A DNA stretch of 24,554 bases, from positions 1 through 24,554 of the IMG/VR virus record IMGVR_UViG_3300025874_000090, one strand, 5' to 3'. This stretch comes from a virus. The position numbers were made by a program, and so were the translations under genes. Of this stretch, positions 3,986 to 10,757 are shown piece after piece; positions within the stretch are counted from its first letter, which is position 1, and every line of letters begins with the position of its first letter. The notes beneath the pieces are model-generated. The model searched no databases. It saw nothing but the letters and a program-made list of their open reading frames with translations, and was not told the DNA's origin.

Positions 3986-4008
3986 GTTATAATTCACCTC
4001 TTCTTGTT

Positions 4009-4046
4009 AAAACCCGCTAGACCTGCAAGTCTGTTATGCGGGTTTT
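4009..4046. terminator. Hairpin between the RHH-like gene and the replication initiator
   Basis: AAAACCCGC (4009-4017) pairs perfectly with GCGGGTTTT (4038-4046), with a second inner stem AGAC/GTCT. The T run (six or more T) follows on the plus strand. In the minus direction, which carries the local genes, only four T follow. It may attenuate leftward readthrough from the RHH-like gene into the replication genes or stop antisense transcription. Confidence 0.5.
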
Positions 4047-4047
4047 T

Positions 4048-4173
4048 TTATTGCGCTGCTAAAGCTCGCTTAATTAATGTTCTTACAGCCATCGAGAAAT
4101 TACCCTCGCAGTTGCTATCCGCGTAAACCTGAACAGATGCAACCAACTCTTTAAAATCTATAAGCTTCTTCAT
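4048..4173 (-). CDS. 41-residue ribbon-helix-helix-like protein (copy 1)
   Basis: Translating 4173 to 4048 gives 41 residues starting MKKLIDFKELVASVQVYADS. Short strand, helix, G-N-F turn and a basic second helix (MAVRTLIKRAL) fit a minimal RHH DNA-binding protein. It is a paralogue of the protein at 1207-1332. It is the first gene after the strong-looking promoter at 4202-4230, which carries a palindrome over its -10 element, so autoregulation is an attractive inference. A hairpin separates it from the replication initiator gene. Confidence 0.7.
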   Translation of the reverse strand: MKKLIDFKELVASVQVYADSNCEGNFSMAVRTLIKRALAAQ

Positions 4174-4201
4174 ACTTCTCTCTAGTGGTTAATGTTAATG
4201 C

Positions 4202-4230
4202 ATTATTGCATATTAAATGTATATACGCAA
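4202..4230 (-). promoter_or_regulatory. Leftward sigma70-like promoter for the replication operon
   Basis: On the minus strand TTGCGT (4225-4230), a 17-base spacer and AATAAT (4202-4207) lie between the terminator at 4257-4283 and the RHH-like gene. The palindrome ATGCA-TTAT-TGCAT (4198-4211) covers the -10 hexamer, and a second palindrome ATTGC-AG-GCAAT (4250-4261) lies upstream of the -35. This looks like a regulated promoter. Confidence 0.5.
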
Positions 4231-4256
4231 AATATTTAACAGGCATTAAATTGCAG

Positions 4257-8697: not shown

Positions 8698-9027
8698 ATG
8701 CTAACCGAACACCAAGAGCAGAAAATGTTCGTTAAGTGGTTTGAACTGCAATATCCAAAGGTCAAAATATTTGCAGTTCCTAATGGTGGTAACAGAAATG
8801 TTATCACCGCCACTATGCTAAAAGCCGAGGGCGTCCGTAAGGGCGTCCCTGACTTGTTTATACCTGAATGGCTTCTATGGATAGAGATGAAGCGAGTTAA
8901 GGGCGGCAAGCTATCACCAGAGCAGTCTAGTTGGATTGATTACCTAAACGGTTGCGGCCATACGGCTTTAGTTGCTAATGGGTTTGACGAAGCTAAGAGC
9001 ATAATAGATAAAAGGCATGACAAATGA
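8698..9027 (+). CDS. VRR-NUC domain nuclease
   Basis: A 109-residue protein matching the VRR-NUC fold: an N-terminal E-H-x-x-Q helix, V-P-N-G-G (27-31), then K-G-V-P-D-L (48-53), W-I-E-M-K (61-65) and the K..PEQ..W helix. D52, E63 and K65 form the PD-(D/E)XK catalytic set. Stand-alone phage VRR-NUC proteins cleave Holliday-junction-like or flap DNA. The ATG follows the SSB stop with no gap, and its end overlaps the DUF3310 gene by ATGA, so it belongs to the recombination operon. Confidence 0.88.
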   Translation: MLTEHQEQKMFVKWFELQYPKVKIFAVPNGGNRNVITATMLKAEGVRKGVPDLFIPEWLLWIEMKRVKGGKLSPEQSSWIDYLNGCGHTALVANGFDEAKSIIDKRHDK

Positions 9028-9317
9028 AACATGACGCAGTTAACAACCCAAAGCATTATGACTTGTTCCCTGGTGAGCAGAGCATCGACCTGATTGAGAA
9101 GTGCTTAACGCCAGAGGAATTTAGGGGCTTTCTAAAAGGCAATTGCTTGAAGTACCGTATTAGAGCAGGCAACAAAGGCGATTTAAAGCAAGATATTGAC
9201 AAAGCTGATTGGTATCAATCTAAGCTATGGGGCTTAGAAACGGTATGGCCGGAGTCAGAAGAACGAATTGATATCATCTCTCACAACGGCCCGACAGGAG
9301 AACATTATAGTGATTAA
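9024..9317 (+). CDS. DUF3310 protein
   Basis: A 97-residue protein with the DUF3310 signature: NNPKHYDLFPG (N-P-x-H-Y), E.I......L....F.GFLKGNCLKYRIRAGNKGD, then K.D..KA.WYQ..L. This domain also forms the C-terminus of T7 gp1.7, a nucleotide kinase, but its own role is unknown. Its stop overlaps the GTG of the truncated methyltransferase-like frame, a configuration that would couple it to a methyltransferase gene if that were intact. Confidence 0.85.
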   Translation: MKHDAVNNPKHYDLFPGEQSIDLIEKCLTPEEFRGFLKGNCLKYRIRAGNKGDLKQDIDKADWYQSKLWGLETVWPESEERIDIISHNGPTGEHYSD

Positions 9318-9357
9318 GTTACTACAAGGCGATTGTCTTGAGCGAATAATTAAATAA
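9310..9357 (+). pseudogene. Remnant of a DNA methyltransferase gene (first 15 codons)
   Basis: A GTG overlapping the DUF3310 stop opens a frame translating to VIKLLQGDCLERIIK then stop. (M/V)-I-K-L-x-x-G-D-C-L-E is the stereotyped start of phage DNA methyltransferases of the class that continues with a DPPY motif. Here the frame stops 15 codons in, and the next ORF is an HNH endonuclease. The simplest reading is that the rest was lost or replaced when the HNH gene arrived. With only 15 codons, a chance match cannot be excluded. Confidence 0.5.
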
Positions 9358-9413
9358 GCTTTGCCATTATCGACACTAACGGTTACCATTGCTAGAAATA
9401 ACTAGGAGGTTTT

Positions 9414-10031
9414 ATGTTTAATAAGAGACGAACCACACATGGTAACAGAACGGTTAAAAATACTAGCGGCGCGTATACGTCTTGGAAGTGCATGAAGGCT
9501 AGGTGCTACAACGATAATAACGACAGTTACCCGCATTATGGAGAAAGAGGCATTGAAGTCTGTGAGAGGTGGTTGTTTAGCTTTGAAAACTTCTTGTCTG
9601 ATATGGGTAATAGACCAATCGGAAGAACCATAGATAGAATTGACGGAAATAAAGGCTATTCCCCTGGAAACTGTAGGTGGGCAACAAATAGAGAGCAGGC
9701 TTTGAATAGGAAAAACGTGGAAGTTATAGAGTTTAAAGGTGAAATGCTAACGCTTTCTGATATAGCTAGGAAATACTCTGTGCCACAAACAACGCTTTAC
9801 AGGCGTTATAGGCAAGGGATTAGAGGTGATGAGCTTTTAGATAGAAGCAACCGGAATAAATTACTTCGCGGAGACAAAAGCGCTAACACTAAATACAATG
9901 ACAAACAAAAAATAGAGATGATTAAAATGGTAAGTGAAGGAATGACGCAATTACAGGTTTCAAAAATCTTCGGGTGTTCTCAATACACTGTCAGCACAGC
10001 TTTATCATCGATCACTACAAATAATAATTAA
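9414..10031 (+). CDS. Free-standing HNH homing endonuclease with HTH tail
   Basis: A 205-residue basic protein. Residues about 20-95 carry the family pattern Y.SWK.M..RCY, then 'HYGERGIEVCERW', F.NFL.DMG, T-I-D-R-I-D and SPGNCRWAT..EQ..N, the HNH-type core of phage homing endonucleases. The C-terminal half has two HTH-like segments: LSDIARKYSVPQTTLYRRYR and TQLQVSKIFGCSQYTVSTAL, a typical DNA-recognition tail. The RBS is nearly ideal (AGGAGGT, 5 bases before ATG), stronger than its neighbours'. It directly follows a truncated methyltransferase start and is followed by a 17-bp stem-loop, consistent with recent insertion. Confidence 0.85.
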   Translation: MFNKRRTTHGNRTVKNTSGAYTSWKCMKARCYNDNNDSYPHYGERGIEVCERWLFSFENFLSDMGNRPIGRTIDRIDGNKGYSPGNCRWATNREQALNRKNVEVIEFKGEMLTLSDIARKYSVPQTTLYRRYRQGIRGDELLDRSNRNKLLRGDKSANTKYNDKQKIEMIKMVSEGMTQLQVSKIFGCSQYTVSTALSSITTNNN

Positions 10032-10034
10032 ATA

Positions 10035-10081
10035 AACTTAACGCTTTACACTCTAATTAAACGGGTGTAAAGCGTTAAGTT
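10035..10081. repeat. Perfect 17-bp inverted repeat (stem-loop) after the HNH gene
   Basis: AACTTAACGCTTTACAC (10035-10051) is the exact reverse complement of 10065-10081, with a 13-base loop. It starts four bases after the HNH stop codon. No T run follows on either strand, so it is not a standard intrinsic terminator. Confidence 0.8.
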
Positions 10082-10093
10082 AAGTTAAGTTAA
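10074..10093. repeat. Four tandem GTTAA units
   Basis: GTTAA occurs four times head to tail, the first copy inside the right arm of the 17-bp inverted repeat. It lies just upstream of the ribosome binding site of the gene at 10112. Slippage at this tract could change leader length. Confidence 0.75.
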
Positions 10094-10111
10094 TCAATTA
10101 AAGAGGTTTTT

Positions 10112-10393
10112 ATGCAAAACATGTTAGATAACATTCCAATTGGCACAAATACGGACTGCCATACTTTGCCGCCTGACTTGGCTCAAATGACTGATGATAT
10201 TTTAGTTAATGGGTTTTGTGAAAAATCAGGATTGACGCTTGATGAAGTAATAGACACTGCTGAAACAGATGTCACTCAGTACGTATCTATATTAAAGCAC
10301 TTGGTAACTCATCAGTCACATTCAGCCAAGGTAGAAGCTAAAAAATACGTTCAAGAATTAGCGTATAAAATGCTGGAGAGGCTTTACAAATGA
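10112..10393 (+). CDS. Hypothetical 93-residue protein
   Basis: A 93-residue acidic protein starting MQNMLDNIPIGTNTDCHTLP. The C-terminal two-thirds is helical (LTLDEVIDTA, YVSILKHLV, VEAKKYVQELAYKMLERLY). It has a good RBS (AAAGAGG) and overlaps the XRE-type gene by ATGA. It may work with that regulator, but no family is recognised. Confidence 0.55.
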   Translation: MQNMLDNIPIGTNTDCHTLPPDLAQMTDDILVNGFCEKSGLTLDEVIDTAETDVTQYVSILKHLVTHQSHSAKVEAKKYVQELAYKMLERLYK

Positions 10394-10593: not shown

Positions 10594-10757
10594 GCAGATA
10601 TAACACCGATTCAGTATTTAGATGTGTGTCAAACATGCGCGAACTTATACGACTTTATAGCAAAGAGCATAAAAACACCGGGCAACTTGCTATTATATTT
10701 AAGTGTAGCCGCGAAGAGGTTGAGCGGGCTCTGAAATCACAGGGGCAATTACTATGA
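10590..10757 (+). CDS. Small HTH-like protein, 55 residues
   Basis: Translating 10590-10757 gives 55 residues starting MSRYNTDSVFRCVSNMRELI. Residues about 30-52 (TGQLAIIFKCSREEVERALK) have a helix, a C-S turn and a second helix like the HTH proteins on the minus strand. The start overlaps the XRE-type gene's stop, and the stop overlaps the next gene's ATG. It is probably a DNA-binding accessory protein. The fold call is by eye. Confidence 0.55.
   Translation: MSRYNTDSVFRCVSNMRELIRLYSKEHKNTGQLAIIFKCSREEVERALKSQGQLL

Follow-up and report, generated by a model that had tools for sequence, protein, structure and literature searches.

A relic of a DNA methyltransferase gene lies directly behind the DUF3310 gene of this phage, next to an apparently intact HNH endonuclease gene. 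The two features probably record separate events, with deletion of a coupled methyltransferase coming first and entry of the HNH gene into the neighboring flank later. The window, by which we mean the whole stretch of DNA analyzed, is a linear 24.5-kb viral record (24,554 nt), probably a fragment, from a phage described as marine. Features are on the + strand except where stated.

The short frame behind the DUF3310 gene

The DUF3310 protein gene (9024-9317; PF11753, E 1.6e-17) ends in the tail WPESEERIDIISHNGPTGEHYSD and is a conserved upstream neighbor, present also in the related contigs L005-L011. Its stop codon (9315-9317) is overlapped for 8 nt by a 15-codon GTG frame, which starts at 9310-9312, codes over 9310-9354 for the peptide VIKLLQGDCLERIIK and terminates at a TAA (9355-9357). 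An AGGAG ribosome-binding site is located ~9 nt 5' of the GTG. Positions 9301-10110 are letter-identical in contigs L024 and L025, whose overlaps with the window show ≥99.9% identity, and because they carry the identical junction between the frame and the HNH gene, this junction is not an assembly artefact. The DUF3310 tail motif WPxxxRIxxIxHNGPTGEHY (9240-9311) recurs in otherwise unrelated phage proteins (L015, L016 and L017, each at 4001-4060) as a small common module.

The peptide was scored over codons 2-12 with a PSSM built from the N-termini of 79 phage N4/N6-methyltransferases. It scored 36.6 bits, 8.8 s.d. above the mean, compared with a median of 35.9 bits for real methyltransferases and 5.6 bits for the runner-up among all six-frame positions of the window. 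The N-terminal strand and GDCLE motif of the PF01555 N4/N6 DNA methyltransferases are both present. The nearest full-length genes, those of L023 and L026 (the L026 locus ends inside the gene), start with MIKLLQGDCLERM and belong to PF01555, a family with solved relatives DpnA, CcrM and MboIIA; the first 36 nt of the window DNA match L026 at 29/36 positions. The match fades after ~12 of the 15 codons, and the relic comprises the start codon and codons 2-12 (9310-9345, VIKLLQGDCLER) with the ribosome-binding site 5' of it. Codons 13-15 are also methyltransferase-like (CGAATGATTGAG in L023 versus CGAATAATTAAA in the stub); thus, the exact break point may be a microhomology.

These results confirm the claim of an earlier note that the GTG frame, fused to the DUF3310 stop, is a methyltransferase N-terminus positioned like a gene coupled to DUF3310. 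Its observation that no C-terminal methyltransferase piece follows in the window also held. The stub contains neither a catalytic DPPY-type motif nor the SAM-binding FxGxG block, the frame stopping after 15 codons, and a profile search gave no PF01555 methyltransferase elsewhere in the 24.5-kb window. The stub is a 12-codon relic that lacks the catalytic motifs, not an enzyme.

The conserved flank and the HNH gene

In L005-L007, L008 and L009, which carry neither an HNH gene nor a PF01555-type methyltransferase at the DUF3310 slot, the DUF3310 gene is followed directly by (AT)AATTAAATAAACTTAA(T/C)GCTTTACACTC. The flank ATAATTAAATAAAC stands immediately behind DUF3310 in L005-L008, and a near-identical form does so in L009. 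The end of the window's GTG frame, ATAATTAAATAA (9346-9357), can be read as IIK-stop (ATA ATT AAA TAA) but is identical to the start of this conserved downstream flank. It lies within the left copy (9345-9361, AATAATTAAATAAGCTT) of a 17-nt direct repeat that brackets the HNH segment. The right copy (10023-10039, AATAATTAAATAAACTT), at which the full flank resumes from 10023, includes the stop codon of the HNH gene. Between the copies 16/17 nt match, with one mismatch; the repeat is AT-rich, and in simulations 0 repeats of such kind are expected per window. The end of the stub is the flank of HNH-free relatives, and a second copy lies beyond the HNH gene, so that the HNH segment borders flank and not methyltransferase sequence. 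The presence of flank at both HNH edges therefore suggests that deletion of the methyltransferase probably preceded the arrival of the HNH gene. The conserved flank also includes a terminator-like or operator-like hairpin (10028-10088), found in a weaker form in HNH-free relatives; compared with relatives, the window has the more perfect right arm, with a few extra bases near AAAGCG. The next conserved gene is a 93-aa ORF with no assigned function (10112-10393), 67-69% identical in L005-L008.

The HNH gene (9414-10031; phrog_3377, E 2.1e-51) is preceded by a leader with an AGGAGG motif (9362-9413), which is absent from the HNH-free relatives. It encodes an apparently intact free-standing endonuclease: an alignment of 28 proteins shows that the HNH residues conserved across its 27 relatives are kept. 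A separate DNA-binding part is formed by C-terminal helix-turn-helix repeats, with HTH matches at 108-135 and 163-194. No solved structure for the protein was found. Location of the gene inside an intron was considered and rejected, as no Rfam match to a group I intron around it reached the gathering threshold. A link of this HNH family to methyltransferases was likewise rejected, since a PF01555-type methyltransferase or DUF3310 gene occurs within 2.5 kb in 0/27 loci of the HNH relatives. Given the latter result, the gene fits a putative mobile endonuclease, free-standing and intergenic, rather than a methyltransferase-tied element. The corresponding site between DUF3310 and the conserved flank is empty in the close relatives L005-L009. 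Elsewhere in the window, the - strand encodes another HNH endonuclease at 596-1210 (phrog_953, E 6e-88; weak PF00847 match), whose C-terminal domain is AP2-like and which is of the HNH-AP2 type described previously (PMC10448857).

A complementary relic and the proposed history

Contig L011 carries a DUF3310 gene with 75% DNA identity to that of the window and an upstream nuclease 86% identical to the upstream nuclease of L005; its downstream genes differ from those of the window. The L011 DUF3310 reading ends in ...WPESDDRMNIVVHNG and passes directly into a 59-aa methyltransferase C-terminal piece, which covers PF01555 profile positions 170-220 of 221 (E 3.3e-19) and is 86% identical over 57 matched residues to the intact methyltransferase of L085. 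No other methyltransferase was found in the L011 contig. At the joint, CATAATGGAGCA is readable either as DUF3310 or as methyltransferase, and this fit to both partners suggests a deletion at microhomology. The breakage is present without any HNH gene at the DUF3310 slot. Compared with its kin, the L011 DUF3310 gene (4001-4255) appears to be shifted in frame by one base, which may mean either decay of the upstream partner as well or an error in the contig.

The front end of the methyltransferase is thus kept in the window and the back end in L011, at the same place behind DUF3310. A PF01555-type methyltransferase occurs near DUF3310 in only one of 90 DUF3310 loci, L011 itself, so that finding relics at the same position in two related phages is not background. 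The two complementary relics therefore indicate an ancestral DUF3310-methyltransferase pair. Intact pairs were sought in viral records, phages, bacterial genomes and plasmids using DUF3310, the 93-aa neighbor, the methyltransferase, the HNH protein, the HNGPTGEHY pattern and the upstream nuclease as queries. None was found in the same phage family; the search turned up only the L011 relic and the distant L037, outside the 90-locus set, in which DUF3310 is followed by one small ORF and then a methyltransferase. A literature search by title, abstract and search terms returned nothing describing DUF3310 with a methyltransferase or a truncated methyltransferase with a homing endonuclease.

We infer the order of events, the mechanisms of deletion and insertion, and the activity of the HNH protein as follows. 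In the ancestor, an N4/N6 (PF01555) DNA methyltransferase gene would have stood behind the DUF3310 gene and been coupled to it. A deletion would then have brought the intergenic flank ATAATTAAATAAACTTAACGC... up against the methyltransferase at about its codon 12, creating the 15-codon open frame. The free-standing HNH homing-type gene, as a 678-bp unit, would later have entered the flank, with the 17-nt flank repeat duplicated and left on either side. Its spread would involve predicted nearby cutting of HNH-free relatives and copying-in by recombination (intronless homing). We consider this two-step history probable. Several points count against it: no relative was found with an intact methyltransferase between a window-type DUF3310 gene and a window-type flank, the arrangement of shared upstream and downstream flanks proposed as a check in the earlier note; L011 has different genes downstream; codons 13-15 of the stub are methyltransferase-like as well; L005-L009 may never have carried the methyltransferase; and the repeat is rich in AT.

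The earlier note had proposed that the HNH gene replaced the methyltransferase by capturing its locus, and that phage DNA modification may have been lost. On such a view the HNH gene would have invaded the methyltransferase gene or been homed in, the same event or later decay removing the remainder. We regard this route as unlikely, and a one-step replacement as less likely than two separate events. The HNH gene does sit where the methyltransferase body would be, and boundaries of gene exchange in phages are a known location of homing endonucleases (PMC10448857). The stub is real and L011 carries its complement; however, each edge of the HNH segment is a copy of the flank repeat, the left one being the flank common to HNH-free relatives. 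Moreover, the methyltransferase is missing in L005-L009 and broken in L011 in the absence of an HNH gene. Capture of the modification locus by the endonuclease was accordingly not borne out, as L005-L009 lack both genes and none of the 27 HNH relatives has such a neighbor within 2.5 kb.

It is improbable that the stub is a piece of foreign DNA, joined by illegitimate recombination with the methyltransferase start of another phage, and that the place behind this DUF3310 gene never held a methyltransferase. PF01555-type methyltransferases are common in phages (1364 records) and no intact arrangement turned up in the family of this phage, but the complementary C-terminal relic occupies the same place in L011, and the stub begins as a resident coupled gene does, with a start codon, a ribosome-binding site and an overlap with the stop of DUF3310. 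It is very improbable that the 15 codons encode a functional small protein or leader peptide with no more than a resemblance to a methyltransferase start, for although the frame is open, has a good ribosome-binding site and is kept in three contigs (uninformative, because these are nearly identical), it is absent in L005-L011, scores as true methyltransferase starts do, and draws its last codons from the flank.

Gene turnover and relation to known systems

Contig L009 is ~91% identical to the window from 10753 onward and contains an extra 200-aa ORF (L009 4975-5577) that has a DPPF motif, matches PF01555 weakly and is exactly absent from the window at ~10753-10757. The edges of this ORF share TATGA at the start codons, a microhomology. 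This methyltransferase-like ORF would be a second modification-type gene, gained or lost nearby. L005-L007 contain an extra 84-aa ORF (L005 4320-4574) with a copy of the leader TTAATCAATT(G/A)CAGAG on either side; L008 (4040-4057) has a single leader copy and lacks the ORF, consistent with a cassette-like insertion or deletion. These extra ORFs indicate that the early region often gains and loses single genes. A further suggestion, which we hold to be doubtful, is that in this marine phage family modification genes have been lost repeatedly from the slot behind DUF3310, through deletions that arose independently in different lineages, and that the short flank repeats there are landing sites for cassettes that come and go, homing endonucleases included.

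Free-standing HNH homing endonucleases occur in phage intergenic regions, as with the mob genes of T4 (PMC2988022), and homing endonuclease genes mark boundaries of exchange (PMC10448857). Like these, the HNH gene of the window is a single gene with its own leader and no intron, in an intergenic site that conserved phage genes flank and that is empty in relatives. Unlike them, it belongs to phrog_3377 with a C-terminal helix-turn-helix and is flanked on both sides by the 16/17-nt repeat; its activity is a prediction. The methyltransferase remains resemble orphan phage N4/N6 DNA methyltransferases (PF01555, phrog_67; relatives of DpnA, CcrM and MboIIA) in the N-terminal MIKLLQGDCLER motif of the window and the C-terminal motif I block of L011, whereas the window retains only the 12-codon relic, with neither DPPY nor FxGxG.

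Two complementary relics leave a fossil record of how a phage family lost a methyltransferase, beside an HNH insertion with both edges and its empty sites visible. The relic and the HNH insertion are both real, and in kind ordinary phage gene flux. What looks like the exchange of a gene for an endonuclease can be two separate events, which calls for caution in claims that homing endonucleases displace modification genes.
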